Part shown: piece after piece, positions 2,669-59,345 of the stretch
How positions within the stretch are numbered: position 1 is the stretch's first letter
Layout: the number at the start of each line of letters is the position of its first letter
From: Sanderia malayensis
Lineage: Eukaryota > Cnidaria > Scyphozoa > Semaeostomeae > Pelagiidae
Length of the DNA stretch: 64,000 nucleotides
Direction of reading: 5' to 3'
Assembly: GCA_013076295.1 (NCBI GenBank)
Contig: RQOL01000730.1
Span: 186,001-250,000 of the forward strand
Notes under the pieces: model-generated
What the model saw: only the letters and a program-made list of their open reading frames with translations
What the model was told of the DNA's origin: nothing
Databases searched by the model: none
Position numbers and translations under genes: made by a program

Positions 2669-4269
2669 ATAACAAGGATCAACCATCACAACAAAACTGT
2701 AAGTTCCCAATTTGAGTATGTAATTGCCAGTGGAACATCTTCCAAATTCTCTTGCAATTACAGCCTACACATTTAATTTTTGTTTTCTCAAATTCACAAA
2801 TTTATGCCTGAAAGGTAGCCTCTTGCATTCAACTAAGAATGGAATATACAATATTTATGTAATGTATTTTTAACTGTGCATCAGAATTTGCAATGAGATT
2901 GGCATATATATTTTGGCATAGGTTATTGCTCTGTACTCTTGTAAATTGAGCACTGTGATGCCAGTGCAGTGTAGACAATAGAAATCTATATATATATATA
3001 TATATATGTTTATATATAATTTTTGTATATCTCCTCATGAGTGGGAAACCACGAAACAGGCTTCTAGGGATACAGATCTTATATATATTATGAATATTCA
3101 ACAAATATTTGTACAATTATTTTATTTTTCTTTCTCATTAGCTTGGGATGCTGCTGAACCAAATGGTATATCTTAGATTTTTGAAATGTGTTCATTATTT
3201 CCCATAACCCTATTACTTTGTATTTCAATGATGTCTGAAGGTTTAATTAATTTCTGTCCATAATTTATTTGCTTCTGTAATTGATGTCTAAGAGTTGTTA
3301 TGTTTATTTATACTAACTGTATTTACAATTTTATAAATCACATTGTGGCTAAATTTGATTTAATTTTAATGCAGATGTAGACACACCTGATATTATAGAG
3401 CCTGGTAAGTGGGTTTTGAAATTTTTCACAACCCAACTGTTCTCATCAATACCAAGATAATTCTTTTCTTACTGAAAGAAAATTGAAAGTCACCCTTCTT
3501 CAAATGAATTTACTCTGGGTAATGTGCTTACCAGTTTGGCCTGAATACTAAATCCTGTAAACATTTTTGTTTGTTTATTGAGATATATAGTATCTGCCTT
3601 TCTGTTATTTATTTTCTTTCTCCTTGTAGTTGAAAATGACCTTCCTGGCTCTGAACCTGGTATGTTGATTAATTTGTTACAAATCACAATTTTATTCTGC
3701 AAAGCTTAGTTTTATTGTGTATCCAGGCATTATCCATATTTCTGATTGTTTTATCTTTTTCCCATGACAACATTATCTCTATATGTGCTATTTTTTCTTC
3801 AGCTGAACACCATCCTGTTTTGCCTGGAACAAGTAAGAAAGTCTGAATATACCAATAACACTGGCTACTAAAGTCTTTAGGAATTGAATTTCATTTAATT
3901 AAATATTTTCTATGTTTTTAATTATATTCTGTTTCCTTGTAGTGGAAATTGACCTTCCTGGCTCTGAACCTGGTATGTTGATAACACAATTTTATTTTGC
4001 AAGGCTTACCTCTATTGCATATTCGGGCATTATCCATATCTTGATTGATTTATCTTTTTTCCATGAAAACATTAACTATATATGTGATTTTTTCCTTAGC
4101 TGAAAATGATTCTGTTTTGCCTAAAACGCGTAAGAAAGACTGAATATGCCAATAACACTGCTTACTAAAGTCTTCAGAAATTGAATTTCATTTAATTAAG
4201 TATCTTCTCGGTTTTTAATTGTATTTTTTTTCCTTGTAGTGGAAATTGACCTTCCCGGCTCTGAACCTG
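2669..4269 (+). CDS. Microexon series of the chromodomain gene
   Basis: Nine tiny exons lie between good acceptor and donor signals, all phase 1 to phase 1: 2669-2698 (30 nt), 3142-3165 (24), 3375-3404 (30), 3630-3659 (30), 3803-3832 (30), 3943-3972 (30), 4100-4129 (30), 4240-4269 (30), and the series resumes after the inserted transposon. Two types alternate: type A (for example VENDLPGSEP, MEIDLPGSEP) and type B (AEHHPVLPGT, AENDSVLPKT). A plus B with their introns form a ~300-bp unit repeated in tandem (A starts at 3630, 3943, 4240; B starts at 3803, 4100). The encoded linker is acidic and Pro-rich and joins the Cys-rich start to the C-terminal chromodomain. Introns contain a (TA)n run at about 2987-3008. 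The eight exons listed are the ones I can place; micro-exons without similarity to these could be missed. Confidence 0.7.
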
Positions 4270-4333
4270 GTATGTTGATCAATTTGTCAACAATCACGTT
4301 TTATTCTGTAAGGCTTAGTTTTATTGCATAGTC

Positions 4334-4349
4334 AGCCATTTTCCATTAT
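4334..4349. repeat. Left target-site duplication, 16 bp
   Basis: AGCCATTTTCCATTAT directly precedes the left inverted terminus and recurs at 9832-9847 after the right one. A 17-bp reading is equally possible, since both copies are followed by T. Sister introns in the tandem unit read GCATTATCC at this place, so the shared GCCATTTTCC variant shows that both flanks came from a single intron split by the insertion. Confidence 0.8.
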
Positions 4350-4404
4350 TACCGTGGCTGATTCGGAAAACTTAACCTTTTAACTTCTCAAGGTTAAGAC
4401 TCGC

Positions 4405-4860
4405 AGCAAGATACGTGGCCGCGTGTCTTGAAGCGCGGCCGCGCCTCTTGGATGTGCGGCCGCGTGTTTAACAACACCACCTTAAGGGACGCGGCCCCAC
4501 GTTTCAGACATGCGGCCGCACGTCTCAGATATGCGGCCGCGTGTTTTAAGACTCCACTTTATTTTATGTCAAATGTGCGGCCGCATACCTTGGATCATAG
4601 AAGGGGTAAGACGTGCGGCCGCACATTTATGATGTGCGGCCGCGCGTTCTGAGAGCATATTTTTGGTCTGGTCTGCAATTTGAACACGAAATCGAAAATC
4701 GGTTCCATGAATTATTGCCTATGACACGTGTCTTGTCAGATTTTGTGCCCCGAAAAGTGTGGCCGCTACTTTCAATTGCGCGGCCGCTGGTTTCAGACGT
4801 GCGGCCACGCATCTTATTGTGCGGCCGCGTGTTTTTGTATCTGTTGCCGCGTGTCCTCAA
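4405..4860. repeat. Left subterminal GCGGCCGC array
   Basis: About thirteen copies of a GC-rich motif (nine exact GCGGCCGC near 4435, 4457, 4512, 4533, 4578, 4616, 4637, 4780 and 4821, plus variants such as GTGGCCGC) are spaced mostly 20-40 bp apart, often as TGCGGCCGCGTGTCTT. The block sits between the inverted terminus and the HECT start codon, so it could be a transposase-binding array and could also act as promoter. The surrounding DNA is AT-rich. Confidence 0.85.
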
Positions 4861-4896
4861 AGACGCATCTTAGGCCTAAGTCGATTTGGCATCGTC

Positions 4897-7434
4897 ATGG
4901 AGGGCATGGCAGGATATGCACAGGTTTGTCGATATTTTCATCCATTTATATTAACAGAACGTAAAGTTATTCGAAAGGTTTACATAAATAATGAGAATAT
5001 CTGTGTCGTGATACAATTTTCATGCAACCAAAAGGGCAAATTACCTTGAAGAAAGAGTGAGCACAGAAAGAAACTTGACCTATTATAGGCCTAATTTAGA
5101 TTGGCCTAGGTGGCATTACACAGTTAAATTATGAAAATTTTCTGTTTTCATATAGTTTCCTATGGTAGACAAAATTTATTGTACATGATGTTTCCAAGTG
5201 AATTTTTCATCAGTTGGCATTAGGAGTACTTATAAACAAGGTTTTCAATGATAGAGTGATGGCTGAAACCCCTTATAAACCCTTAGTTTTATACTTATCA
5301 TGTTATTTCATCTGGATTTCTTTCAGATTCAACAGTTTCTAGAGTCAAGAAAAATTGATTACTTGCTGCCAGCTTTCCAGGTAAACAAAATTGATGATGA
5401 TGTGGCAACAAGTTGTTCAGATGCAAAGTTGCTGGAAATTGGATTGGTGTATGGAGATATTCTATCATTCAGGAAAAAATTCAACCAAGACAACAAGGAT
5501 GGCAATATTGGCAATCAGAAAGCCAAAACATATGAAGAACGTGCTGAAGAATTAAGAAAACGGATCAAGAAAACTCATACTAATCGACTTGATGCAAACA
5601 ATCGTGCTGTTATGGTGAAACCAACATATCACGTTTCATTTGGATTGAAATGTTTAGAGAAAAAAAAGTACACATTGAAACTAAATCAAAGTTTTTCTGA
5701 AGAAGTACAACGTCAAGCAAGTTATGATGACATCCACACCCTTTGTAGAAACAACTTTGATATCCCACCATACACAGCAACTTACCTGGCTCACTACAAT
5801 GGCGTCAAGATTGATGGCAGTTTCACCACAGTTGAAAATTTTGCTTATCAGCAAAGAGACAAGAAGAAATCACTCCATCTTTACTTGTATTACCCACATT
5901 CATACAACAGCATAAAGTTTAAGACACTGCTGCATGAAATGAAAGAAGCAACCTCTGACCTTAAAGAAGAAAGTGACCTTGATGACAAAAATGCAGAAGT
6001 TTCCACTGATGATTTCAAAGAAGGCAGTGTCTCCTTCCGGGCAAATATGGTCCACACAACTGATACCAATTCTTCCTCAAGTTCTCCAATCTATATTGAC
6101 ATCACAAATGAGAAACCAAAAGAATCAAACATCTCATCTGCAGTGAGGGTGCAAACTGAAGCTCAGGAATTTCCCACTGTTCATTTGACAAGAAATTGTG
6201 ATCGCCCTTTGAGATATCGACATTCAATAGGCTCCCCAAGTTTATCTTTTGGCTCCAGAATGGTTGATATTGACATTACAGCAACAAATGATGCAGCTAC
6301 ACTTTATGGTGATGAAGAAGTTGATCGGTTTTTTGAAGCTAATGATGTGGATTTATCTCCGAAACCAGTCACAGTATCAAAGAATGTAGCAGATGAGGAT
6401 GTCATCTCTCTGCTCCAAGATGTGACAGCTCGATTCAGATGGCACGACGGACTGACAATCTCAAGCATGTTATTGTGCAGCAAGATGAGAATCGCTTTTG
6501 GAGCATCCTTTTCAAGCAAAAATTTGATTTTCGAAATGAAGACATCATCATCCGTTTTGCAGGTGAATCAGGTGCAGATGCAGGAGGCTTGCTCAGAGAA
6601 TTTCTAACATTGGCAATGAGGAATTTTCGTCATATTCCAGGAATCACCATTGGGAGCAACGATATTTGGTTGAAGATGGTGCCAGAATACCTTGTCAAGA
6701 ACCGTTACTACATGTTGGGACAGTTGACGGGAATGGCCATCATAACAATTGGGAGGGGCCCCGAATGTTTCAACCTGATGCTTGTTCAGGCACTGCTTGG
6801 TGTATCCCATGATGAGGTGTTACCAAATGTTGATGATGGCGAGTTGAATGCAATGATGTCACAGATTGCAAGTGGTGATACAGATCCTTTGTTGGAAAAT
6901 GACATAATGGTGACAAGTGATGTTAATGCCTGTACACGACTCCTAGTTATCAGTCACATCATACTCCGAAACTCTGGTGCGATTGAGCAATTTGCCAAAG
7001 GTCTCCAGAGCATTGATGAAGCACTAACGGCAAGTGAAAATTTTGAAGCCATGAAGCAATTTTTGATGGAAGGCAAGACAGTCCTCACTCTTGATGAATT
7101 CCTGAAGATTTTGGAGTTCAAGAAGGACTGTGATGACAACTCAAATACAGGAAGAGCAATTGCTGATGCAGTTTGCGATGTGGAACTGTTTATTGCATCT
7201 CTCGCCAACAATGAGGTGGAAGGAGCCAAATTGTCAGATTTGCTTTATTTGTTAACTGGATTGGATAGGGTGCCACCATTTGGCCTTCACAAGAAGATTG
7301 AGGTGTCATTCAGTGAAGAGGAAAAGTTTGCAAAAATTTCTACCTGTGCTTACACAGTGGTACTGCCTATGAAGGACATTGAAAAGGTACTGAAGATTTC
7401 TTTGGAATGTGGTGGTGGATTTGGCTGTGTGTAA
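4897..7434 (+). CDS. Transposon-borne SAM-like/HECT E3 ubiquitin ligase
   Basis: Exon 1 (4897-4923) encodes MEGMAGYAQ and ends at CAG|GTTTGT; exon 2 begins after TTTCAG at 5327 in phase 0. The first ~55 residues of exon 2 resemble a SAM domain (helical, ending LLEIGLVYGDILSFRKKF). A charged, Ser-rich middle follows, then a HECT domain from about 6490: GESGADAGGLLREFL in the N-lobe and, near the C-terminus, STCAYTVVLP with the expected catalytic cysteine, so the ligase could be active. The frame shifts by one between the middle and the HECT part. Either a 65-bp GT-AG intron (6374-6438, phase 0 on both sides) is spliced, or a one-base lesion lies near 6436. HECT ligases transfer ubiquitin through that cysteine. 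A role in transposition or in altering host proteins is inference. Similar G2E3-like HECT proteins are abundant in cnidarian and fish genomes. Confidence 0.75.
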
Positions 7435-8344
7435 GGCAGTTTGTCAATGATTAGTTTCAGATTAGTTTGATTAGAGTAATATTCTCGTTATGTTTTGACA
7501 TGTTATGTTTGATTTTGGGTGACCCAAAAACTTCGCGAGCTACTTCATGCAATCAAAAATACGCAATCTTTGTAACCAAACAACAATGCAAATTATGAGC
7601 AGGGCATTGCAAGAACCTTATCACCTGATTATAATCTTGGTCGTTAAATTTTTGAGTCACCTACTACATTATTTTATTGACGCTGTTGAGACTGTTTCCT
7701 GGTGTTTGCTGATGCTGTTATGTCATGTCCCTTGGGGGACAGGGGGGTGACTTAACAATTAAATGGGAGTTGAGTGGGGATGTGCCATTTTTGGGTAAGT
7801 GTTATAGACAAATAAGATATTGGAGAAACATTGACAAAGACTTTACTAATATCTATGAATTTCAAGCAAATTGATAACTCTGTCCATTTTACACAATACT
7901 ATGTTTGTCATCAGTGACTCTGTCTTGGTTCAAAGATTCATTGCCTTTAAACATTCTATTTGGCGCTAGTTTGTTCTCGGGCTCAGTGACACGGCATGAT
8001 GGGGTATTTCTTCAATGGCCTGGAATTACATGTGGTCCCAATTTTTATCTAAGAATGGCACATCCCCATCATTTTAACCCCAAAGATACCCCTTACGTTA
8101 CGCTGCGTTTAGTTGATGTACAATTGATTATACTAACGTGAACATTGAGAACTCTTCTTGCTGATATCATGTTCTGTTTTATTGAATGTGTTTTTGGTAC
8201 GTTTTTAAACATGCTTTAATGAAGTTTTATCAATTTTTTTTCATGGCGGCCGGTGTTCTTGTCTTCAGAAAGGTTTTCCTTCGACAATTTTACTTTCTCA
8301 TGATGTCACGCAAAGAAGTAGTGAAAAGAAAGACAAAAAGGAGA
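7435..8344. other. Spacer between the two transposon genes
   Basis: Non-coding DNA between convergent gene ends. A short inverted pair, GGGGATGTGCCATT near 7776 and its complement near 8055, suggests a small hairpin or a relic insertion. No gene is visible. Confidence 0.4.
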
Positions 8345-9490
8345 TTACACTGCAAAATTGTCATTCTCGAATAGAGATAAAATTTTTACATATAAATTAC
8401 ATGCCCCTTCGGCATCTATTGGAACATCTAAATTATGGATATGAAGATAGCAAGTAATTAGTTCGTGAATGTCTTTGTCTATCCACACTGGATGCTTCTT
8501 TATACCTAATACATCTTCTGCGACTCTGATATCATTCGGGTTGACTTGAATACCTTGGTCTTCAAAGCCGAATGCCCTTGGCATTGTGAAAAGAATGTTT
8601 GCCTTTCCACCTGGTGCAGATGCAGATTGTCTAACTCTCCTTGCATTCCAAGTTGCCATAAATTCATTTAGTTCCCTCTGAATCACTGGCATGAAGCAGA
8701 ATAGCAATGCTTCTTTGTGAGTAGGCAAATATGGCTTGTATAACCCCAGCTGAAACATATCAGTAAAGTACTGAATCCACCAATAGAAGCAGAATTTCTT
8801 TAACCTCGACCAGTATGCTTCGATTCTTTGGTTAGCAGTGGACCTTCCATATCTGAAACTATCAGCATCATTTGTAAAAAAGACTTGCAGATCTTCACAA
8901 TAGATATTTTCCGTCCCAAAATCCATTTTTATTTGTCTTGGTGCAAATCCACTTTTCTTTACACAATCGAGAAAATAATTAGCGATAACGATTTGGTCGC
9001 TGTTAGTCGATGATACTATCATCCAAAGGACCTTACGGCTGAATCCGTCGACTCCTGAGTGAATATAGAAGCCCCATTGTTTAAGCTTGTCATTTCCATC
9101 AATGTGATAAACATCATTGGGACCATTCGTTTCGTAAATTTTTCTCTTCAGCACCCTTCCACGACGCTCTTCCACGCCATCAGGATCAACCTCTTTCAGG
9201 GCTTTCCTGACTGACTCTTTGGATATCCTTGTACTATACCTCAAATTTACAATCTCGCTCATTTGCCTGTAGCCTACTTTTCTTCGACAAGTATCTAGCT
9301 CATTTGACACCATTTCTTTGATTAGATTTGATTCGATATTCCAGTGCTTCGACAAACCTTCTTTTTGGCAAATGTACTTGAGCTGTCGTTCTGTTATATC
9401 CACGCCATGGTATTTTCTCAACAGGATGCATATTTCTCTTTTCGTGTACTTCGGTGATACTGCATGATAGCAAATGGCACCACAAGCCAT
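8345..9490 (-). CDS. DDE integrase-type transposase
   Basis: An uninterrupted 381-residue frame. The N-terminal ~60 residues look like a helix-turn-helix region (YTKREICILLRKYHGVDITE). The catalytic core has the three acidic motifs of an rve/RNase H-like integrase: HIDGNDKL, KMDFGTEN and NQRIEAYWS, with 33 residues between the second Asp and the Glu. The WWIQYF and CFMPVIQRELN segments after the Glu are typical of a group annotated as integrase core domain proteins in fish and cnidarians. The start at 9488-9490 is the first ATG of the frame, but it is preceded by an AG that could be a splice acceptor, so an upstream exon is possible. It faces the right terminus and converges with the HECT gene. 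Confidence 0.8.
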   Translation of the reverse strand: MACGAICYHAVSPKYTKREICILLRKYHGVDITERQLKYICQKEGLSKHWNIESNLIKEMVSNELDTCRRKVGYRQMSEIVNLRYSTRISKESVRKALKEVDPDGVEERRGRVLKRKIYETNGPNDVYHIDGNDKLKQWGFYIHSGVDGFSRKVLWMIVSSTNSDQIVIANYFLDCVKKSGFAPRQIKMDFGTENIYCEDLQVFFTNDADSFRYGRSTANQRIEAYWSRLKKFCFYWWIQYFTDMFQLGLYKPYLPTHKEALLFCFMPVIQRELNEFMATWNARRVRQSASAPGGKANILFTMPRAFGFEDQGIQVNPNDIRVAEDVLGIKKHPVWIDKDIHELITCYLHIHNLDVPIDAEGACNLYVKILSLFENDNFAV

Positions 9491-9599
9491 CTGGCATGAA
9501 CATTCTGATGGTGGACTGCATTAAATGATGGGCCGCTTTCAAGCTGGTAATCTGCCTTTTTTGTTAATACACGGACCAGAACAAGAAAGCATAAATGCT

Positions 9600-9780
9600 A
9601 AAACATGCGGCCGCGTATCTGAGACGTGCGGCCGCGTCTCTCAAGGTTGCGTTCTAAAACACGCGGCCGCACATCTAAGAGGCGCGGCCGCACTTCAAGA
9701 CACGTGACCGCGTCCCTTAAGGTTGTGTTGTAAAACACGCGGCCGCGCTTCAAGATACGCGGCCGCGTGTCTTGCCGCGA
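9600..9780. repeat. Right subterminal GCGGCCGC array
   Basis: Six exact GCGGCCGC copies (near 9607, 9628, 9664, 9682, 9740, 9760) and one variant (GTGACCGC, 9705) mirror the left array, with the same flanks (CGTGTCTT, CTTCAAGA). The last two form the inner part of the inverted terminus. Confidence 0.85.
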
Positions 9781-9831
9781 GTCTTAACCTTGAGAAGTTA
9801 AAAGGTTAAGTTGTCCGAATCAGCCACGGTA

Positions 9832-9847
9832 AGCCATTTTCCATTAT
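9832..9847. repeat. Right target-site duplication, 16 bp
   Basis: An exact repeat of 4334-4349, followed by the remainder of the split intron (ATGATTGTTTTATC), which matches the sister introns at about 3745 and 4040. Confidence 0.8.
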
Positions 9848-9904: not shown

Positions 9905-10290
9905 TCTTGCCTGAAAGCCATTCTGTTGTGCCATTTTATAAATCTCTTATTTTTATTTTTATCTTGTGGGGTTCTGAGTAGCATGGGTCTGTTTTTGTAA
10001 TTTACTTGTTATTTTTGTATAGGGGTAAATGTCTCATAATGCACCCCTACACATCACACACCACACATTAAAATAAACAATGACAAAAAGCAAGCACTGT
10101 CATCCTCTTATAAATGGTGAAAAATCCTATTCTATTGTGCCTGAAACATGTATTAAAGTCTAAATATACTAATAACACTGGCTGCTTTAGGAATTTAATT
10201 TCGTTAACTTAAATATATTTTGCGTTTATAATCATATTCTGTTTCCTTGTAGTAGAAAATGGCCTTTCTTTTTCATCCTGCAAGCGTTAG
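9905..10290 (+). pseudogene. Decayed microexon copies
   Basis: Three remnants of the A/B microexon unit. A type-B copy at about 9911-9937 (CCTGAAAGCCATTCTGTTGTGCC) has lost its AG acceptor. A second type-B copy at about 10122-10151 has a poor donor. A type-A copy at 10253 keeps its TTGTAG acceptor but begins with TAG-like sequence and runs by deletion straight into intron sequence. They are not expected to be used and show that the tandem unit expanded further and then eroded. Confidence 0.55.
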
Positions 10291-10342
10291 TTTTATTGTG
10301 TATTCAGGCATTACGCATATATATTATTGCTTTTTTCTATAG

Positions 10343-12055: not shown

Positions 12056-13247
12056 TCACTTAAGTTTTAATATCATTTCAAACAATTGTTTAGAATTTGG
12101 TCTGGTTGTGCTTGCTGTGCCTTGCTTTGCTATCTCGAAAAGATCTGTTTTAATCTTTCCATCAATCTGGGTATGCTGGACAACCTTTTTTATTAACATA
12201 CACAAGGAGAAAACATCTGATTCCACTGAAGGTGCATCTCCAGCCAGAATGTTGGGTGCAAGATAGTCATGCTGATGCCTATATGTTCTTGCAGAAACAG
12301 TTTTTGTCTTGCCACTTTCACTAAAGTCAATTAGTACAAGGATCCATCTTTTGGCCTTACTGTACATAAAAACCGCATTATCACTCTTGATGTCATTGTG
12401 AAGAAAGCCAGCACTATGTACATGATGAAGAGCAGAAGTCAACAATTGAAATATTTGAATCCAATCTTCACCTTTAAAATAGCTTGGATTTTTCTGCAAC
12501 AACTTGAGCAGGGTGATACATTTCCCATGGTAGCAGCATAGCTGTGTGACTAGCCTGTATGGTTTTTGAGCCATTGATACACCAAGGAAAAGGGGAATAC
12601 CTTCATGTGCTGGAATGTTCAGCAATGTTGTGGCTTCATTTAATATCCGCTTTCTCAATGATAACAAAGAGTAGTGACTGCCTTCTTTGAATTCTTTGAC
12701 AGCCACCTCCATCCCTTTAAATTTCATCAGTTTTACCACACCAAATGTGCCTTCTCCAAGAATCACCTCTTTGCTAGCATCCAATAGATCTGAGTTGATG
12801 AAGAACTGTCTTGGTAGATGCTGGATAAATTCTTGGGGAATATCACAAACTTCTAAATCTGTTTGAATGCTTCTTGACACTGCATTCCATTGTGTTTGTG
12901 TAGATGTAGTTGCTTTATCAAAATGCTCCAATTCATATGGTCTTTTCCTGAAATTGTTAGAAGGCCCACTTTCTTGGCTTACAGAATTTGCTCGACTTTC
13001 AGCATCACCAGTAGGTTCTATAATTTGTTCAATTATGGCTCTTCTTTGAAGTCCAAAGTAATGACTTCTCCCTCTGTATTTCATTACTTTGCAATTAATG
13101 AATTGTTTTTTTATAGTCTCACTAATTTTCTTCTTTGATAAACCACTGAAATGAAGTAATACTTCAATGTGAACTTCCTCCGTGGGTATTGAAAACTTCC
13201 ACATGTCGCCAAATCTTTCTGTATTCTCACTGAATTGACTGACAAGC
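12056..13247 (-). CDS. Protein kinase-like protein (3' exon)
   Basis: A single long exon follows a TTCATTCACAG acceptor at 13248 and ends in TGA at 12056-12058. The frame is open from the acceptor, ahead of the first ATG at 13202-13204, so the true start is in an upstream exon that I cannot place surely (a candidate lies at 13345-13450). The N-terminal ~140 residues are not recognised. The C-terminal half is a kinase fold: GEGTFGVV glycine loop, VAVKEF lysine, HNDIKSDN catalytic loop (HRD changed to HND but Asp, Lys and Asn kept) and LIDFSESG (DFG changed to DFS). The core residues for catalysis remain, so activity is possible. Substrate and pathway are unknown. Confidence 0.75.
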
Positions 13248-14441: not shown

Positions 14442-16731
14442 TCTAATATATATATTCTACGGAGTCACGTGACGGTGGCGAAACTCTGCCAAAAACAATA
14501 GATTCGACCCGAAACAATAGGTCGAACGCCCAAAAACAATGGGCCGAAATGGCGAATCGGTGATCAATAAGGCTCTTTTGAATGGGGTTGCAAAAGGTTG
14601 AGACTTGCATGGAAAGGCTCCATTTCTAGAGTAGGCAAAAGTTATCTATTTTTGGAAGCCTATTTTAAAAGAATTTATGATTTATTCCATTAATTGTTCC
14701 ACTAATTCTGCTATCACGAAAAAACGACGGTTTACGCTGGCGAAACTTCCAAATTAGCGTCCCCAACTCCATTTTCGAAAAGAGTATTCGCTGTTCACGT
14801 GATTCGTTTCGCCTTTTCCTGCAATTGGATTGGCTCTTTCGCAACTTCACGTGAACAGTGACGCGTTTTTCGTTACCATGCAAATTTGCCCTCGGCAGGC
14901 AGCAGGTACTTTTGGAGAAGACGCGTGTTTTTGTTTTGTACACAAAAAGTGAGGTGGGCGCCTTTCAAAGTGTTTTACCAGCTGAATTATCTTTGTAAAG
15001 AGCTCTTAATTGTTTGAAAGACCCCTTGAGAGTTGCAGGAAACAATAGAGAACACAGGTGATAGCTTTGTTTTGTTTTTTGAATGAAATAGTTGTAGGTT
15101 TTGTAACAGGCAACCGCCATTGTTGCTTCGGCATGCTTACAACGCTTAGGCCATGGTTAAGGTTTTGAATTTTTCCGGCCCTATTTGCACGATTTTCCCC
15201 ATTTAAATTTTTGACAAGTGTTGTCTGATAACACAACTAAAATAATGTGTTGTTTTTTTTCGTTTCGTTGTTGTTTTTTTTACGATTTCCAACAAAGTTG
15301 CTTTTCACTCGGGAAGAAGCAATTTTTCACGCAACACGCATTGTTTTTGCATTTGCGAAAATTCAATTTTAGCCTGCCACAATTGATTATTTTTTACCCC
15401 AACACTTTCGATAATTGTTCCCCAACATATTACCTTCATGTTGGTGTTTTTTCAGTTCAACTGGGTCACTATTTGCCACGGTAAATACTATTCCTACTTG
15501 CTAAAGTGTGTTCAGAGGTTTTGCTTTTTGCACGGCTCCGAAATTTCATTCAAACCACTTCCACTAAATGGTCTCTAAGAATTCAGTATTACTTATTTAA
15601 GAGATGAGACTATTTGCAACGTATTCGCTGTTTCCTTAGCTACAGTGTGGTATATTTTTTATTACAGATTGAGTTCAAATTTTTCAGGATGGATTAGGTT
15701 TTTGAAAGTGACTATTTTTTTCCGAACTTCACACTAAAATTATCAACTTTCAGAAACGGCTTTCAAGGTGCAGCGTGGGCGCGGGGCAGTCGCTTGCTAG
15801 GGGGGAAGATTCGACCTCCCACCTTTACTTTCTTTAGAAATGTTACGTCGTAGTATGTATAGTAAGGTATGTATAGTAGGGTATGTATGGTAGGGTATGT
15901 ATAGTAGGCTATGTATTGTAGGGTATGTATTGTAGGGTATGTATTGTAGGGTATGTATTGTGGGGGTATGTATTGTAGGGTATGTTTTGTATTGTATGTA
16001 TTATAGGGTATGTATTGTGGGGTATGTATTGTAGGGTATGTATTGTATTGTATGTATTGTAGGGTATGTATTGTAGGGTGTGAATTGTAGGGTATGTATT
16101 GTAGGGCATGTATTGTAGGGTATGTATTGTAGGGTGTGTATTGTAGGGTATGTATTGTAGGGTATGTATTGTATTGTATGTATTGTAGGGTATGTGTTGT
16201 AGGGTATGTATTGTAGGGTATGTAGGGTATGTATTGTAGGGTAGATATTGTAGGGTGCGTATGGTAGGGTATGTATTGTAGGGTATGTAGGGTATGCATT
16301 GTAGGATATGTATTGTAGGGTATGTATTGTAGGGCATGTATTGTGGGGTATGTATTGTAGGGTATGTATTGTATTGTATGTATTGTAGGGTATGTATTGT
16401 AGGATATGTATTGTATGGTATGTATTGTAGGGTATGTATTGTAGGGTATGTATGTAGTATGTATGTATGTATGTATGTATGTATGGGCATGAGCGGCAGC
16501 GAATGCAGCACGCGGAGCGCGCCAACCAGATTAAGCATTGTTTACTTGAGGGGCTCCAGGGAGGGAGCGAAGCGACCGAACCCTGCTCATGTATGTATGT
16601 ATGTATGTAGGTATGTATGTATGTATAGGCATGAGCGGGAGCGAATGCAGCGCGCGAAGCACGCCGACCAGATTAACCTTTTTTTACTTGACGGACTGGG
16701 GCGAACGAGCGAAGCGAGTGATGACCCCTAG
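14442..16731 (+). mobile_element. Non-autonomous Helitron with minisatellite
   Basis: It starts TCTAATATATATATTC after an A and ends GACCCCTAG before a T, as Helitrons do (TC...CTAG, inserted between A and T). The 3' end carries a GC-rich stem: GGGGCGAACGAGCGA paired by the GTGATGACCCC side. The 5' ~600 bp are shared with the elements at 38731, 51576, 59570 and 62906. The interior has no protein frame; open frames across the array are translations of repeats. It ends with two tandem copies of the ~105-bp 3' module (16485-16590 and 16629-16731). Confidence 0.8.
15855..16484. repeat. Minisatellite (GTATTGTAGGGTAT) and (GTAT)n
   Basis: Roughly forty imperfect copies of a 14-bp unit, TGTAGGGTATGTAT and variants, followed by a pure (GTAT)n run at 16447-16484. 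The same array, reversed, is present in the element at 63070-63240. Confidence 0.9.
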
Positions 16732-29845: not shown

Positions 29846-32221
29846 TTACAACCCAACACCCAAGCTTTTTAAAAAGTCCTTTTCTGCATTTCGCAAAAGG
29901 CGCAGTGTTCCACTGTTAACTTTGATTTTGCTATAGTCAAAACTTTCATTGGCGCCATAAAAGTTTTCACTATTAAATTTCTTCAGGCAAGTATCTTTAA
30001 AGTGGATATACATCGGCCCAAATTTTGACTGTTCCTTCCCTGTCTTTCTGTCTGTCCAAGTACTTGTTCCATAAGATTTGACGACGATGGAATCATCTGA
30101 TGAAATTTTTTTCCCACAGTTACCTTGGCATTTTGAAACTGATTGTGGTAACGTGCTTCGAAGATTCAACTCAAATTCTTTAGGTTGATCAACACGTGGG
30201 TCCGCAAATCTTAAGTTTCCTGGGGAAGAATCACTCTTTTGCACGTTATCTGCTTGTTTCTGTCTCCACTGCTGTGACGTAGGTGATTTACTTAAATGGA
30301 TGGTGAGGCTTTCATGAGGACTTTCTTTTTCTGCATTTCTGTCAATCACCATATAAGGCTCATCATGATTCCTTCTGCAGGTGTTGTATCCAGGTTTTCT
30401 CCCTGCATTCCTTGCCTTATGAAATGAATCACTTGGTCCAATCCTGTAATCTCTGAAAGCTTTGATGTGATCCTCTTTTCTTTTTGTTGACCATGAGTGC
30501 CAGAGTGCACTGTCCACAGAAAACTTCTTGTACTCTGTGGATAAAACATATCTTCCAGCTCCATAAATGGCTCTTATCTCATCAGAATCTTGTCGATCGT
30601 GCATTTTCTTCATGTACGATATTACTTTCAGTGTGCTCAATTTTCCAAAAGACTGATTATGTTTTTCCACAAAGTGAAGCGATTCAATGTCATTCTGGTA
30701 GTACAAGCCAACAGTGTCAGTGCCAGTCCGTGCTGACTGAATTACACTTTCAATGAGCTTTGCCTTTCTTTTTCTTACAAACCACTCATGAAATCCAGGA
30801 CACAGTTTTTCCCACTTTTCTTCCAATGAGCCTAATTTGACATTGAAATCTTCATTATCAAAGGAGTCAGCCAGACCATACTCGTACACATTACCTTTTC
30901 TTTCACCATAAATGTCTTTTATAATTTCACTTTTGGCATGATTTCCTTGAGCTTGGTTTATCTTTAACACCTGGAGAAGTTTCAATAGCTTTTCTTCATC
31001 TCTGGAACTCAAATGATGAACGCAAAGCAAATGCTTTAAATCAGGAATATGGTGCTTGAATCCTGAAAAAATAGCTTCCTCCATATCAACACCGACCTTT
31101 TTGAGATTTCGAAGTCCAGGATCAGCAGCAATAAGCTCCAGTGCAAGACGAGAAAAGGAATCAGGTCCCTTTGTAAAGTGGAACATTGCTGGTCCCAGAA
31201 AAACTGGATGCTTTCCACTTGATGAATGCACAATGCGTTTGTTTCTGTAGCAAGTATCAGTTACCCAAAGATCACATAAGTTGAATGTTGTATCTACTCC
31301 AAGAACAGAGACTGCCTCTACTTCATCACAACAGAACTGCTTAATGTCATCTATTTGCTTTGGAGAATACACAAAAAAGAAGTATGCAGACCTAGTTGCT
31401 ACAATGGTTTGAATGAAATCACAGGTCTTTTGCTCATGGATTATCTGCAACATTTCATCAGATGCAGCTGACACTCTTTGATCACCACTTTCTTTCTTCT
31501 TTTTCAACTGTGACTTACGATTATAAATCTGCTTCATGTCTCTTGGCTCTTGTGATTGTGAGAGGGACTTCAAAGGTCCACCTGAATTTTCAAGAACATG
31601 ATCGTAGGCTTCAAAAGGATTTTTGCCATTCATAAGCAGAATATCTTCAGCTTGTAGTGTACTGATGGCAGTCTTGTAATATGATCTTTGCATATTGTTG
31701 CCAGCTTTACAATTCCCGTGGGGAAGTATTTGAATATCATCATCTTCATCCAAGAGCTGTTCTGTACACGAGTAAACCACACACATATAATCCTCATAGT
31801 TTTGTTTGCTGTTTGCCTTAATCCTGACAATCATTCTTCTGAGGCTGGGTATGCTTTTATTTTGACGATAGTAGCGCTCAATACTATAGACATCGCTTTC
31901 ACAAACAAGCACATTTTCGTAAGCTCTCCCATTACGCTGTTTATAGTAGAATCCTTTACTGCTTTTGTGCACTTTGAAAGCCCTAGCATTGTCCTTTTTT
32001 CATTGATCTGCACATAATAGTGTGATGTTACTTTGTTTGAATTAATGTACGCACCATTGTCATCGCTTGTAATATCATCTACAGAGTAGTTCTTAATGGT
32101 GTACATGTAATCTCTTCTCACACCTTTAACTGGATATCGCTCTTCATATTGTTCAGGATTGAGCAACAGCACATAAAGAAGCTGTTCTGCTGTTGGATTT
32201 TCAAATGTAAAGCTGCCAAAC
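29846..32221 (-). pseudogene. MULE transposase, single frameshift
   Basis: The exon begins after TGTTTCAG at 32221 and starts FGSFTFENPTAEQ. Near 31985 the frame changes by one base within the CTAGGGCTTTC stretch; downstream the frame (AFKVHKSSKGFYYK onward) stays open for about 700 residues to 29846. The core has GVDTTFNLCD and KKVGVDMEEAIFSGF with the two expected aspartates, then CVHHLSSRDEEK. C-terminal cysteines (CQGNCGKKI, DTCLKKF) may bind zinc. One lesion in so long a frame suggests recent inactivation; a sequencing error is the main alternative. Confidence 0.75.
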
Positions 32222-41893: not shown

Positions 41894-43109
41894 TCCTATC
41901 TCTTTCAGCCCAACAAGTTTGTCACCTGCTAATCTTCTCCTTCCCACCTTTAAAAGTCTGAAGTACGCAGGGGAAATCCCTTCACACGAAAATTTTCCCT
42001 CCTTTTTTGTCACGTGACGCGTATAAACCAATAACGAAAGCGATATAGTACAATAAAAGTCCCGCCTCTGATAATTTGCACAATTAGATTTTGTCTATTT
42101 TTAACCGGCCAAATTTTCTAAAGGCTATAATTATAGTTAATCTTATCCGAATTATCGCTGAGTAAGTACCTACTTTCAACATGTTTTACTAACTACAAGC
42201 TTTGTTACTACAAGCTAGCCAGATTATTTATCACTACTTCGCCTCATAAGACAACAGTTATTGTTTTTCTTGGTATGCTTTTTATTATAAAAACAGGTTA
42301 CGTGTTGTGCAGGTATCATTTCTTTATCAAATATTTTAAATTTACAACTATTCTGATTTCTCTTTTGTTTCTACCCATAGATTTGAAAGACACCTGGCTC
42401 TGTAAGAAATTTATTGTTTGACTACAATTTTCCTTGCTCACTGATCTATATTACTCTTTAATTGTGTGTTTTTCTTATAAATAAAGGCCCAGCTAAATCT
42501 ATTTTCAAATAACGGACACTTCTCTCTCGCAAACTCATCTCCATAATAAACTTATATTTTTGTTTTTTTTTATTTCTCTCTTTTCTAAATGAGCCTCTGT
42601 ACAACAAACTATTTCGCTAATTCTATGTTTCTTTCATGGATAGTAAGTATATTAACAACGATTTCTCAAATCGTGTTTCAACAAATTATTAAAAACTGCT
42701 GCACTTGATTCAAATTGATTCTTATTTATTCAGGTATTCTGAGTTTTGTCCATTATTCATTTTATTTTACTACTTATGTTTGAACTATAAATTTACTCTA
42801 TTCCATTTTAGTGACTGTTTACCCAACAGAAACGATCACAGTTTAAACATAAGTATATTCATTTAACATAAATAATATTATATAACAATACTTTTCCATT
42901 TACTTCATTACCAGTTTTAACTTATCATTATGGAACCCTTGAAATATATCATATTTATTTCTTTTTTTTTTCAGCTTTACACAAGGCCATAATTATTACC
43001 ATTGTTGTTGCTATTAAGACCATTGTGAACAAGCAATAACATTTACAATAATTTCGCCTAATTGTATATCTCACACTTTATACTTCTTTTTTACATTACA
43101 ACTTGCACC

Positions 43110-45784
43110 ATGCCGCGCAAGGTCAAGAGAAGTATCACAAGAGAGGGACGTAGAAATGAGATGAGGCTGTATCGTCAGCATCAAAGACAGCAGAACGAAC
43201 AACCTCAGCTTCCGGAGGCAGAGTCCATCAATGCAGAACTTGCAGCAGTCAACGATCTTCAGCAATTGCAGCTCGCAAACCGTCAGCTAGAAGCCCCTGA
43301 ATATCAACCATTTCCTGCACAGTATCCCCTCCTACAGTTACAGCCAATGCAGATGGGCATGGAACCACAGCTTCCCGCTCAGATCCCATGGCTCCCCATT
43401 CTGAACCAACAGCTTCCCATTCTAAACCAACAGCTTCCTATTCTGAACCAAGAGCTTCCTATTCTGAACCAAGAGCTTCAAATTGAGAACCAAGAGCTTC
43501 CTATTCAGAACCAAGAGCTTCAAGCAGCAGAACAACCTACACACATCGAGATGCAAGATGCAGTTCCAGTACCTGATGAAAATCAGATACCAGAACCCAT
43601 TGAAGATCAGCAAATGCAAGTTGACAACCCTGTCCCTGAGAACAATGAAGCTGAAAACCTCATCCCCTTCTCCCCATTACCACACCACTTGAATAAAATG
43701 AACAGAACATGTATTCATTGTGGTGTAAAGTACTTCAAAGAAGAACTTAACTCCCGAAAACAATACAACAAGTGTTGCATGGGAGGTTTAATCACTCTGG
43801 ATCCAGTTCAACCACCTCCAAACAGTGTCATGCATTTATACACGGGTGATACTGCCGAATCAAAGTATTTCTTAAAGCACTTCCGCCAATACAACTCAAT
43901 ATTGGCCATGGCATCATGGAAGGCTAATATGACACTTATCGAGGCCTGATGGATCATCTCCACAGAAGAGCTGAAATCGAAAACCAGATGGCCTGGGCTA
44001 ACAATCTGAATCAGCCCATCCATATCGATGTTGGCCGTGTTATCATTCTACCATCATCCTTTCCAGGCAGCCAAAGAAACATGTATCAACATTTTCAAGA
44101 TGCAATGACAATCGTAAGGAAGTATGGCAAGCCAGACATCTTCCTCACAATGACTGCCAATCCTAAATGGAAGGAGATTGAAGAAAATATTCATCAGCAT
44201 CAGACGGCCAGTGATCGACCAGACATTGTCACAAGAGTATTTCAACTCAAACTCAAAGAACTACTCGAAGACATACTACACAACCACATTCTTGGACATG
44301 TCACTGCACATGTGTATGTCAGAGAATTTCAGAAGAGAGGACTATCACACTTTTCACACGTAGTAATAATTCTTACTCACATAGTTGCATTTACATCCAA
44401 TGCAGATTTTATGATGATTCACATTTGGTTAACTACAACTATTCTGTAGGTAATTTCTATTATAAAATTGTTAATTATCATATTCATTATCAGGTGGATC
44501 AACTGATATCAGCAGAGATTCCAGACCCACAGGATGCCAAACACCACAAGTTGGTCCTAAAGCACATGGCACATGGACCCTGTGGTGTATTAAATCCTCA
44601 TTGCGTGTGCATGGAAAATAACAAATGCAAAAAACACTTTCCGAAAGAACAAGTTGCTGAAACTCAAATTAATGTTAACGGCTATCCTCTCCACAGACGA
44701 CGCTGTCTCCATCCAGTCAATGTACATGATCGCATTTTGGATGATACATGGGTAGTGCCACACAACAGACACCTACTAATCAAATATCAGTGTCATATCA
44801 ACGTGGATATATGCAGTACAGTAAAAAGTTTCAAGTACATCTTCAAATATATCCACAAAGGACATGATATGGCACATGTTGAATTTCTTGAAGAAAATCA
44901 ACAACAAGAACCTCAAGATATTGAACACGGCAAGGTGCGCCAATGCATCAACGCAAATATATTGGACCACATGAAGCTGTCTATCGGCTTATGCAGTTCC
45001 CCATGCACGACAAAAGCCACATAGTTAAACGGCTTTCTGTTCACCTACCATTTGAGCAACAAGTCATCTTTCAGGACAATGATGACGAACAAAGGCTCAA
45101 CAACATTGGTGATAGAACAACACTTACAGCATGGTTTGAACTCAACCAGCAAGATCCAGCTGCACGTCAGTACCTCTACCATGAGATACCAGAGCACTAT
45201 GTTTTCCAGGAGCGTTCAAAAACATGGACAGCCAGACAACGTAAAACAATGCCAATCATTGGTAGAGTAACTCAAGTGCAGCCTAGACCTTGCGAGCAAA
45301 AATTGGCCCTCAGACTTTTGCTGTTGCATTAACGAGGAGCTACATCATTTGAAGACCTTCGAATGGTAGAAGGTAATCTATGGACTCCTTCAAAGATGCA
45401 GCACTAGCTTTAGGGCTTTTAGAAGATGATGCCGAAATCACACGCTGTTTACACGATGCAGTCATCTTTAATATGCCACCACAACTTAGACAGTTGTTTG
45501 CCACATTGCTACTCTTTCAAACGCCTTCAGACATAAGAACACTCTTCGACACCTTCAAAGAAGCCTTGAGTGAAGATTTTGTCAGACGTGATCAAATCAA
45601 CAATCCAGACATAGCCTTGCATGACAGACACATGTATCAATGTCTACTTGATATTGACAACAATTTGAAGGTCCATGGTTTGTCAATCACCAACTACGAT
45701 CACCTTCCTCAGCTACCGGCCGACTTTGTCATTCCAGAACAAGGTGATTTACAGCTTAACATGATGATCTTCACTGTAATTACT
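43110..45784 (+). pseudogene. Helitron RepHel, N-terminal and Rep part, left copy
   Basis: It starts MPRKVKRSIT, followed by a Gln-rich region with about eight LPILNQ-type heptads encoded by 21-bp repeats, then a zinc-binding CIHCG...CC segment as in many Helitron proteins. A ~0.9-kb deletion near 43935 removes part of the Rep region and shifts the frame. The Rep section then resumes: KPDIFLTMTANPKWKEI, a degraded HUH site (HFSH where the right copy has PHAH) and KYIFKYIHKGHD with the tyrosine motif intact. An intron ends at TTATCAG before 44493. Other lesions are a TAA near 45331 and a one-base loss near 45390. Rep nicks and joins DNA strands in rolling-circle transposition; this copy cannot do so. 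Confidence 0.8.
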
Positions 45785-45821
45785 TACAATATACTGTAAT
45801 GACTATTGTTTATGTTTTCAG

Positions 45822-47413
45822 AGGAGGATCACATGGATGTTGAAAACGGAAGAGAGCAAGGAGAACAAATGCGTGCTGCATTGAATCGAGAACAACAAGT
45901 GGTATACACAGCCATTATTCAAGCATTTGAGGTGCAATCAGAACAGAACTGTCACTTTCTCGACGGACCAGCTGGCACAGGAAAAACATTTCTCTACAAC
46001 ACGTTGGTTCGCAACCTCAATGCTTCTGAACACAAAGTTCAGTGTATGGCTTGGTCAGGAATTGCAGCAACACTGCTTATCAATGGCAGAACATCGCATT
46101 CACAATTCCAAATTCCAATACCATTGAAGCTAGAATCAACATGCAATGTCAAAAGACAGAGCCGAAGAGCGCAACTGTTGCGTGAGACAACCCTGTTTAT
46201 ATGGGATGAAGCTTCAATGATACCAGCATTGGCATTACAAGCAGTTGACAGATTGCTTCGGGATATCACAAGAGTTGACAAGCCATTTGGTGGCAAATTC
46301 ATGTTACTTGGTGGCGATTTTAGACAAGTTCTACCGGTTGTTCCCAAGGCAGGAAGAGAGCAAATCTTATCAGAGAGTCTTAACTCATATCAAATCAGTG
46401 ATTTGTGGGCACAGTTTCAACAACATCGCCTGCACACAAACATGAGAGCTGTTCAAGATCAATCGTACAGAGAATTCTCAGAATGGCTCCTAAGACTCGG
46501 CAACAAACAAGAACCACATGATGCACTTGACAATATCACTTTGCCACATCAAATATGCACATCTTCGCAAGAGGAAATGCTCAACTTCATATATCCCGAG
46601 CCTAATACACCACAGTCCCACCTCATGCTGGATCCGGTAACCATGTCAGAACGTTGTTGTCTTACCCCAAAGAATGACTTCTCACATCAAATCAATGACA
46701 TCATTCTGGAAAGACTGCAAACCCCTGAAAGAACATACTACAGCACAGACAGTGTGATAACAGAAGATCCAGATGAGGAGGCGGCATATCCAATTGAGTT
46801 TATCAACAATCTAACTCCTAATGGATTGCCGTTACACCGACTTAGACTCAAGGTATAATCTTCCTATGTAATAATTACGTATACATGAATTGAAGTCCAC
46901 ACTAATGGCACTTTTTTAAGCCTGATTATCCTTCCTTATCACAGTACTATAATGCAAAATACACATTGTTATTTGCAACTCTCTTTGTTTAAGGTTGGTG
47001 CAACAATCATTCTTCTGAGGAATCTAAATCCAAGGAAAGGTCTTTGCAATGGCACAAGACTCATTGTACGCCATCTCTGATGTAACGTCATCACAGCAGA
47101 GATCATCACGAGGGAACACATAGGCCAGCAGATCATGATTCCAAGAATAACATTTTCAACACAAGACACTGAGATGCCGTTCAACATCAAGCGACGGCAA
47201 TTTCCAGTCAGACTAGCATACTGCCTTACTATCAACAAGGCACAGGGACAATCTCTGAGGTATGTTGGTTTGTATTTACCTGAGCCCGTGTTCACACATG
47301 GTCAGTTATATGTGGCCATGTCAAGAGCAACATCATTTGACGGGCTCAAAGTATTCCTCCCAGAGGAAACACACATGAAGACAAAAAATATTGTCTTCCA
47401 AGAAGTCCTGTAA
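45822..47413 (+). pseudogene. Helitron Pif1-like helicase part, left copy
   Basis: Two exons, 45822-46852 and 46994-47413. The first has Walker A GPAGTGKT, Walker B WDEAS and GGDFRQVLPVVP, all typical of the Pif1-like helicase domain of RepHel. The second ends with the conserved AYCLTINKAQGQSL and QLYVAMSRATSFDGLKVF. One TGA at about 47079-47081 replaces the CGA of the right copy, a C-to-T change in a CpG. Apart from that stop, this is the best preserved helicase of the two copies. Confidence 0.8.
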
Positions 47414-54172: not shown

Positions 54173-55741
54173 TTACAGGACTTCTTGGAAGACAATATTT
54201 TTTGTCTTCTTGTGTGACTTCTCTGGGAGGAATACTTTGAGCCCTTCAAATGATGTTGCTCTTGACATGGCCACATATAACTGACCATGTGTGAACACGG
54301 GCTCTGGTAAATACAAACCAGCATACCTCAGAGATTGTCCCTGTGCCTAGTTGATAGTAAGGCAGTATGCTAGTCTGACAGGAAATTGGCATCGCTTGAT
54401 GTTGAACGGTATTTCAGTGTCTTGTGTTGACATTGTTATTCTGGGAATCATGACTGCTGGCCTCTGTGTTCCTTCGTGATGATCTCTGCTGTGATGACGT
54501 TACGTCGGAGATGGCGTACAATGAGTCTTGTGCCTTTGCAAAGACCTTTCTTTGGACTTAGATTCCTCAGAAGAATCATTGTTGCACCAACCTTAAACAC
54601 AGTGAATTGTAAATTACTATTGCATAATATTAGAACATGACTAAAGGATAATGTTGCTTTGTCTAGAATTCATGTCATGTATTATTATTACATAGGAAGA
54701 AAGATTATACCCTTAGTCTAAGTCGGTGTAACGGCAATCCATTAGGAGTTATATTGTTGATAAACTCAATTGGATATGCCGCCTCCTCATCTGGATCCTC
54801 TGTTATCACACTGTCTGTGCTGTAGTATGTTCTTTCAGGGGTTTGCAGTCTTTGCAGAATGATGTCATTGATTTGATGTGAGAAGGCATTCTTTGGGGTA
54901 AGACAACAACGTTCTGACATGGTTACCGGATCCAGCATGAGGTGGGACTGTGGTGTATTAGGCTCGGGATATATGAAGTTGAGCATTTCCTCTCACGAAT
55001 ATGTGGATATTTGATGTGGCAAAGTGATATTGTCAAGTGCATCATGTGGTTCTTGTTTGTTGCCGAGTCTTAGGAGCCATTCTGAGAATTCTCTGTACGA
55101 TTCATCTTGAACAGCTCTCATGTTTGTGTGCAGGCAATGTTGTCGAAACTGTGCCCACAAATCACTGATTTGATATGATTTAAGACTCTCTGATACGATT
55201 TGCTCTCTTCCTGCCTTGGGAACAACCGGTAGAACTTGTCTAAAATCGCCACCAAGTAACATGAATTTGCCACCAAATGGCTTGTCAACTCTTGTGATAT
55301 CCCGAAGCAGTCTGTCAACTGCTTGTAATGCCAATGCTGTTATCATTGAAGCTTCATCCCATATAGATAGGGTTGTCTCACGCAACAGTTGCGCTCTTTG
55401 GCTCTGTCTCTTAACATTGCATGTTGATTCCAGCTTCAATGGTATTGGAATTTGGAATTGTGAATGCGATGTTCTGCCATTGATAAGCAGTGTTGCTGCA
55501 ATTCCTGACCAAGCCATACACTGAACTTTGGGCCCAGAAGCATTGAGGTTGCGAACCAAAGTGTTGTAGAGAAATGCTTTCCCTGTGCCAGCTGGTCCGT
55601 CAAGAAAGTGACAGTTTTGTTCTGATTGCACCTCAATTGCTTCAATAATGGCTGTGTAAACAACTCGTTGTTCTGGATTCAATGCAGCTCGCATTTGTTC
55701 TCCTTGCTCTCTTTCAATTTCAACATCCATATGATCTTCCT
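54173..55741 (-). pseudogene. Helitron Pif1-like helicase part, right copy
   Basis: Exons 54711-55741 and 54173-54591. Walker A reads GPAGTGKA, so the Thr that binds Mg-ATP is lost; WDEAS and GGDFRQVLP remain. A TGA near 54994 replaces CAA of the left copy, and the final exon has a TAG where the left copy has AAG of INKAQGQ, as well as other stops. This copy is more decayed than the left helicase. Confidence 0.8.
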
Positions 55742-55791
55742 CTGAAAACATAAACAATTGTTAATTTGGTAGAAAAAGAAGTATATATTGG

Positions 55792-58700: not shown

Positions 58701-59345
58701 GAGTGATTAAACCTCCTATGCAACATTTGTTGTACTGTTTTTTGTGTTAAGTTCTTCTTTGAAGTACTTTGCACCACAATGAATGCATGTTCTGGTCATT
58801 TTATTCAAGTGGTGTGGTAATGGGGAGAAGGGGGTGAGGTTTTCAGCTCCATTGTTCTTGGGGACAGGGTTGGGAACTTGCATTTGCTGATCTTCAATGG
58901 GTTCTGGTATCTGATTTTCATCAGGTACTGGAACTGCAACGAGCATCTCGATGTCTGCAGGTTGTTCTCCTGCTTGAAGCTCTTGGTTCAGAATGGAAAG
59001 CTCTTGGTTCTGAATGGGAAGCTCTTGGTTCAGAATGGGAAGCTGTTGGTTCTGAATGGGAAGCTCTTGGTTCAGAATGGGAAGCTCTGGTTCCATGTCC
59101 ATCTCCATTGGCTGTATATCTGGAAGAGGATACTGTGCTGGAAATGGCTGATATTCAGGGGCTTTTAGCTGACGGTTCTCGAGCTGCAATTGTTGAAGAT
59201 CGTTGACGGCTGCAAGTGGGTTATCCACATTTCCTGTCTGTTGAGGCTGAAGTTGTTGATTGATCTGTCTGTGATGCTGTACATTCTCCCGCACTTGATT
59301 TCTACGCCTGGTGCCGGTTATACTTCTCTTGGCCTTGCGCGGCAT
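55792..59345 (-). pseudogene. Helitron RepHel, N-terminal and Rep part, right copy
   Basis: It starts MPRKAKRSIT at 59345, with six LPI(L/Q)NQ heptads and the CIHCG zinc segment, where a one-base loss near 58745 shifts the frame. An intron (donor near 58505, GTAATTG; acceptor before 58384) leads to the Rep exon VTETDRSRKYPELY, with PDIFLTMTANPKWKEI. A 7-bp loss near 57385 shifts the frame again, before the intact HUH site LPHAHMILF (about 57255). An intron follows CCACAACAG|GTAATG. The tyrosine motif reads KDIFKYIHKG, so one of the paired tyrosines is lost. It then continues to 55792 with a further frame change near 56340. Confidence 0.8.

Follow-up and report, generated by a model that had tools for sequence, protein, structure and literature searches.

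A HECT ubiquitin ligase gene paired with an integrase-type transposase in a DNA transposon of Sanderia malayensis

When a ubiquitin ligase gene lies between the ends of a transposon, does it belong to the element, and what might it do there? The question is raised by a 64,000-nucleotide stretch of the Sanderia malayensis genome (assembly GCA_013076295.1, contig RQOL01000730.1, positions 186,001 to 250,000 of the forward strand), called here the window, whose own numbering is used throughout. Positions 4350-9831 of the window are a DNA transposon with TA..TA ends, inside which a DDE transposase gene and a HECT gene lie tail to tail. A first-pass annotation, made from the letters alone, had proposed that both genes form one mobile element, and we regard this anatomy, one element with two genes, as almost certain. 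Our further reading is that the element encodes, beside its transposase, a predicted active ubiquitin ligase (E3) that, to the advantage of the element, likely tags some protein of the host for removal; to this we assign a probability of about 0.6.

The annotation had reported near-perfect inverted ends of about 95 bp and a matching target duplication, both of which we recover, the duplication as an exact 16-bp match.

4334-4349: target-site duplication, left copy, AGCCATTTTCCATTAT, 16 bp, identical to 9832-9847
4349-4443 and 9738-9832: terminal inverted arms, 95 nt, 95% complementarity, from repeat comparison within the window
4350-4443, plus strand: left terminal inverted repeat, starting TACCGTGGCTGATTCGG
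4407-4854: left subterminal array, ~20-bp units around GCGGCCGC (direct repeats D1-D3), with 9 of the 15 GCGGCCGC sites of the window
9599-9770: right subterminal array of repeated GCGGCCGC units, with 6 of the 15 sites
9738-9831, minus strand: right terminal inverted repeat, ending CCACGGTA
9832-9847: target-site duplication, right copy, AGCCATTTTCCATTAT, 16 bp, directly outside TACCGTGG..CCACGGTA

The ends also fit TA plus CCGTGG, as a Mariner-type TA duplication would have it; this candidate was rejected because the full flanking match outside TACCGTGG..CCACGGTA spans 16 bp. All 15 GCGGCCGC sites fall within the two subterminal arrays, against an expectation of 0.07 for the entire window, and we infer that the arrays are putative transposase-binding sites. 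An Rfam search of the window gave no match. Local repeats at 3900-4280 and 10210-10292, in which a splice-acceptor-like TTTCCTTGTAG is followed by TGGAAATTGACCTTCC, suggest that the transposon sits within a repeated, intron-like stretch.

Between these ends lie the parts of the two genes.

4897-4923, plus strand: predicted first HECT exon, ATG to CAG followed by GT (prediction only, by eye)
5327-6469, plus strand: main exon, first open reading frame, N-terminal half of the HECT protein
6442-7434, plus strand: second frame through the stop, HECT domain (Pfam HECT match 6442-7431, E 5.4e-9, above cut-off)
7345-7347, plus strand: catalytic-type cysteine codon in STC, residue 302 of the 330-residue piece
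8345-9490, minus strand: DD33E transposase gene, intact open frame of 381 residues, Pfam rva_4, E 5.1e-31
9098-9100, 8921-8923 and 8819-8821, minus strand: triad codons D131, D190 and E224, from alignment

The transposase bears out the open DDE frame of the DD33E integrase type that had been claimed for it. Its frame is intact, D131, D190 and E224 are conserved in 52, 52 and 51 of 52 aligned sequences (query included; the single miss is a gap), and 33 residues separate D190 from E224. With an RNase H-like core and a D-D-E triad, it has the rve/DDE integrase fold. NCBIfam gave weak matches to IS481 (2.9e-6) and IS3 (0.009), both far under the cut-offs, and a sequence search of the transposase profile against the chains of solved structures gave no match at E 0.001. 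Pfam listed no zinc domain in this transposase, an upstream HHCC motif not having been specifically looked for; the transposases of loci L057, L033 and L041 start with paired CxxC motifs of zinc-ribbon-like look, which are not seen in that of the window.

The HECT gene would be spliced: its predicted intron, placed by eye and a prediction only, has a GT donor at 4924 and an AG acceptor ending at 5326, in phase 0. The N-terminal half of its protein is 87% identical to the relative P0008 and 38% identical to the distant L048 family, and Pfam found nothing in it up to E 0.1.

Is the pairing of the two genes peculiar to this locus? We scanned the assembly (184 Mb in 918 contigs) and merged transposase and HECT matches into clusters, later extended by two more HECT queries, giving 223 transposase clusters; the totals are lower bounds, because such searches score only the best candidates. 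When only the Pfam HECT query is used, a model not derived from transposons specifically, at least 55 of 93 HECT clusters have an rva_4 transposase cluster no more than 6 kb away, against about 1.4 expected by chance if placement is uniform, an assumption behind all our expectations. Fifty-three of these 55 pairs are convergent (tail to tail), one is tandem and one divergent. All HECT queries together bring at least 121 of 218 clusters within 6 kb of a transposase (about 3.4 expected), with 115 pairs convergent, four divergent and two tandem; counted from the other side, at least 121 of the 223 transposase clusters have HECT within that distance. In a protein-kinase control, one of 116 clusters was near a transposase (about 1.8 expected). 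This control is imperfect, since kinase genes may occupy less repeat-rich DNA than the HECT matches; the orientation bias is independent of it. The sole control kinase near a transposase is, by its coordinates, a kinase-like open frame in the window itself (12056-13204, minus strand, Pkinase E 1.5e-23), 2.2 kb past the element.

Does the ligase gene also move with the transposase? Ends could be defined in five families, that of the window and four others, for which we use our own names (F1, F3, F4 and F6 of F1-F6). F1 (L047) is 4,760 bp long, runs TATGGCACGCC..GGCGTGCCATA and encodes a 734-residue HECT-type protein and an rva_4 transposase (481 residues from the first ATG). This young family stands at four places with different flanks, a 100% identical HECT domain and equal transposase scores, and its target duplications are CATTAG, ATTTGG and GAGATG (6 bp each) and CAACAGTAAC (10 bp) (L047, L050-L055). 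F4 (L056) occupies two sites, with duplications GATTGC and TGTTGC, as does F6 (L058), with GTTTGG and GAAATT. F3 (L049) has the ends TATACCCC..GGGGTATA and the duplication GATATG; its views in C769 and C761 show the right flank only and neither end, respectively. F1, F4 and F6 have TATGG..CCATA termini. Across F1, F3, F4 and F6 the duplication is 6 bp at eight of nine sites and 10 bp at the remaining one (found by script at L047, L049, L056 and L058, and by eye from printed flanks at the other five). Both genes are present at the sites described for F3, F4 and F6, the transposase frame being in pieces or partial in F3 and F4. Families that occupy several sites with their own duplications and hold both genes show ligase and transposase genes moving together. 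Inverted ends were also sought in the L048 (9.9 kb) and L057 (7.3 kb) stretches, and none were found. Among these related elements, duplication sizes spread over 6, 10 and 16 bp.

The window's own family is less complete. Its left 151 bases have a full-length match at six other places, and they also match the right end and fragments in C629; both ends are found in the window copy only, the others being partial (L010, L013, L015) or one-ended. One 30-bp left flank is common to C767:117695, C203, C372 and C704, which makes them a single insertion represented in several contigs, and the flanks of C767:91445 and C303:3861351 differ from it. That all copies of the family are separate insertions was rejected, as L009, L011, L012 and L014 have one common left flank. 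The core claim of the annotation, one mobile element with both genes, is supported by independent families that have the two genes between the same ends at several sites, and by the tail-to-tail arrangement of 53 of the 55 pairs.

The same data bear on whether a host HECT gene has been flanked by a transposon by chance, or the contig misassembled. The genome does have HECT genes that come in several exon-like pieces with no detected transposase near them, and the four siblings with one 30-bp flank amount to a single insertion. Against this, three families have both genes enclosed by ends that are bounded by target duplications at different sites, and the pairing far exceeds both chance and the kinase control. 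We consider chance flanking and artefact extremely improbable, and rejected both on the multi-site insertions and the kinase control.

Would the HECT protein be a ligase? We built a profile (A4) from 13 aligned HECT domains, ten from this genome and three from database proteins. It matches E6AP over positions 7-337 of 338 (E 2.8e-27), that is, over the whole HECT domain with its N- and C-lobes, and its TC falls on the TC that E6AP has in the context FNVLLLP, the cysteine there being the catalytic one of E6AP. A catalytic-type cysteine is present in all 13 domains. Inspection of printed translations by eye found a cysteine ahead of an L/I/V-P motif in 32 of 32 C-terminal stretches, drawn from 82 HECT clusters within 10 kb of a transposase and picked for a Pfam match nearing the C-terminal end, a selection that may favour intact C-lobes; seven of the stretches nearly duplicate another one, and in that of L089 there is an in-frame stop. 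Pfam HECT scores above its cut-off in the window, L049, L056, L057 and L058 and slightly below it in L048; the L047 protein alone gave no Pfam match, and its assignment rests on the family alignment. Outside HECT, Pfam found no domain above cut-off in any of seven scanned HECT genes, or in P0008. The F3 protein (L049:2022-3422) has a CUE-like (ubiquitin-binding) stretch that scores 20.0 bits against a Pfam cut-off of 21.1. In having an entire HECT domain, both lobes and the catalytic TC motif, the ligase resembles the HECT E3s E6AP, RSP5, AREL1 and HUWE1; it differs from them in being transposon-encoded and very divergent.

Several observations weigh against an element served by a working ligase. 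The HECT gene with its STC motif is indeed inside the ends, as the annotation had said, but a frameshift near 6.44 kb, which the annotation had missed, divides it between two frames; P0002 and P0008, which are relatives, and L012, a sibling copy, have a single frame across that place, and the sibling copy's HECT match contains two stops. The ratio of nonsynonymous to synonymous substitution rates (dN/dS) for HECT, a check that the annotation had proposed, is 0.75-1.30 in six comparisons of the window with sibling copies (three contigs, one insertion), which fits decaying copies; in other families, four pairs with few changes gave 0.28-0.48, one pair in which synonymous change is saturated gave 0.07, and the ratio is undefined in three pairs with zero synonymous change. 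An AlphaFold model of the window HECT, built on nine sequences, reached a predicted local distance difference test (pLDDT) of 44, too poor to be informative. Finally, 17 of 65 intact transposase loci (a hand-picked list of open frames of at least 400 residues with no stop) have no HECT detected within 6 kb, suggesting that the ligase is perhaps not indispensable; at two of the 17 (C777:2586980 and C781:1044585) a weak HECT is present in L025/L026. The group of L031, L032 and L039 has no HECT within 1.5 kb, nor within 6 kb at the sensitivity of the search, so that the partnership is frequent and not universal. Three sponge-associated rva_4 contigs (L099-L101) likewise have no HECT in their short flanks. 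The annotation had named copies without HECT, and a HECT gene at a fixed host position, as signs against its proposal; no HECT was detected in some copies and clades, but 48 of the 65 intact loci have one within 6 kb.

Might the HECT gene then be a captured passenger, held between the ends with no role in transposition? The 17 loci, the partial copy L010 (transposase without HECT) and a HECT dN/dS near 0.9 in the window family would all suit it. A passenger is not expected, however, to hold one orientation in 115 of 121 pairs, or to keep its cysteine in all 32 stretches when the ligases of other families are mostly 18-22% identical to that of the window; long open HECT frames also exist (e.g. 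734, 654 and 642 residues). We consider a passenger very unlikely, and think it probable that the HECT ligase is active for the element.

The history of the two genes bears on what the ligase might act upon. Transposase and ligase trees of 16 loci are correlated (Mantel r 0.58, with 1 of 9999 permutations as high), as are those of 13 dereplicated loci (r 0.42; 15 of 9999) and of 11 loci without the window pair (r 0.34; 184 of 9999); the HECT tree is rough because some HECT rows are short. In F1 the trees clearly disagree, the transposase grouping with L049/L056/L058 (support 1.00) and the HECT with L036/L057/L040/L045 (0.94). We read the two-gene history as old common descent with at least one ligase exchange. 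A correlation of this kind would be expected if the two proteins must fit each other, as they would if the ligase ubiquitinated its own transposase and set its level, a built-in brake on over-activity. Shared descent alone yields the same correlation, however, and F1, which joins the transposase of one clade to the ligase of another, nevertheless has four copies with an identical ligase domain at different sites; we think such a brake unlikely. The N-terminal halves of the HECT proteins in the window group and in the F1/F3/F4/F6 group showed no detectable relation (hhalign probability 0.12 out of 100, E 0.48, from thin profiles), which fits different substrates and is no proof of them.

We return to an element whose ligase would act on the host. 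Its transposase would bring the two ends together by way of the subterminal repeat arrays and join them to the target by strand transfer, with a resulting duplication of 16 bp in the window element and mostly 6 bp in F1, F3, F4 and F6. Encoded on the other strand, the ligase would accept ubiquitin at its cysteine from a ubiquitin-conjugating enzyme (E2) of the host and transfer it to a substrate. Most likely this substrate would be a host factor for silencing, repair or restriction, to which we give somewhat less than an even chance, and not the transposase of the element itself, which we think unlikely.

Relatives were also sought outside this genome. Database protein searches gave nine matches for the HECT, two for the F1 HECT (best 7991 candidates scored) and 97 for the transposase. 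A scan of genome contigs found three transposase relatives among 136 matched stretches, all from one assembly of a bacterial symbiont of a poecilosclerid sponge (L099-L101); these are probably sponge DNA, because they hold rva_4-like transposases and, in L100, retrotransposon-like frames. One scan of viral contigs was without a pattern match, another gave 55 pattern matches of which none was a relative, and a phage search gave no match.

Elsewhere in the window, two inverted Helitron-like gene sets lie at 43062-46858 (plus strand) and 54993-59345 (minus strand), the former with a PIF1 helicase (E 2e-60) and the latter with a Helitron_like_N domain (E 6.8e-36). A 708-residue open frame at 29846-31972 (minus strand) has no Pfam match at E 0.01 and by its look may be a transposon protein. 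A long simple repeat at 15763-16538 yields overlapping open frames rich in HTLQYIPYNTYPTI.

Among known elements, IS3EU/GingerRoot elements are described with TA..TA termini and with duplications that are usually, not always, of 6 bp (PMC10045372), and fungal IS3EU with some TAYGG..CCRTA ends (in rust fungi), TET/JBP genes and an alpha-kinase opposite the transposase (PMC12730594). TA..TA termini are common to these and to the window element (TACCGTGG..CCACGGTA), F1, F3, F4 and F6; the TATGG..CCATA ends of F1, F4 and F6, the mostly 6-bp duplications of F1, F3, F4 and F6, and a DDE transposase with weak IS3/IS481 similarity are further likenesses. By that general description F1, F3, F4 and F6 fit IS3EU. 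They differ in carrying a HECT ligase, neither "HECT" nor "ubiquitin" occurring in the main texts of PMC10045372 and PMC12730594, and the window family differs further in its TACCG ends and 16-bp duplication. Because 16 bp departs from the 6-bp duplication, we call the window element IS3EU-like and not proven IS3EU. IS481EU of parabasalids has TG..CA termini, a single protein in autonomous families and duplications of about 4, 15 or 25 bp (PMC10045372). Its integrase-like, IS481-related DDE transposase and its discrete duplication sizes recall the window element, whose 16 bp, measured at the family's sole measurable insertion (the siblings having one end only), is about one helical turn above 6; TA..TA rather than TG..CA termini, and two genes rather than one, set the window element apart. 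The nearest functional parallel, a transposon with its own ubiquitin-system enzyme, is the Helitrons and Helentrons with VTD or OTU deubiquitinase domains, the catalytic residues of VTD being reported as conserved (PMC9741609). Those enzymes remove ubiquitin, belong to another transposon class and lie inside the Helitron frame, whereas the ligase here is a separate, convergent gene. Among the open-access papers searched, none has both "IS3EU" and "HECT" in it, though a Repbase or Dfam entry without a paper may exist, and among the papers listed by other searches, in one case 12 of 428, none, judged by title and start of abstract, treats a transposon-encoded HECT ligase; the excerpts of PMC4255032 and PMC8195603 had no bearing on HECT in transposons.

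Tentatively, a long-lived branch of integrase-type animal transposons may keep a HECT E3 as its standard second gene, a mobile counter-defence that would degrade a silencing or restricting host factor; ligases would have swapped between lineages, and the elements would have seeded lineage-specific HECT families of animals. Transposons are known to carry deubiquitinase-type domains (VTD and OTU of Helitrons) or DNA demethylases (TET/JBP of fungi), and HECT as a frequent companion of an integrase-type lineage would add a ubiquitin-attaching side to this arsenal. One could then also test by which factors the host limits DNA transposons in early-branching animals. For annotation, it is a warning that many HECT genes in such genomes are transposon genes and not host expansions, at least 55 of 93 Pfam-HECT clusters here having a transposase within 6 kb.

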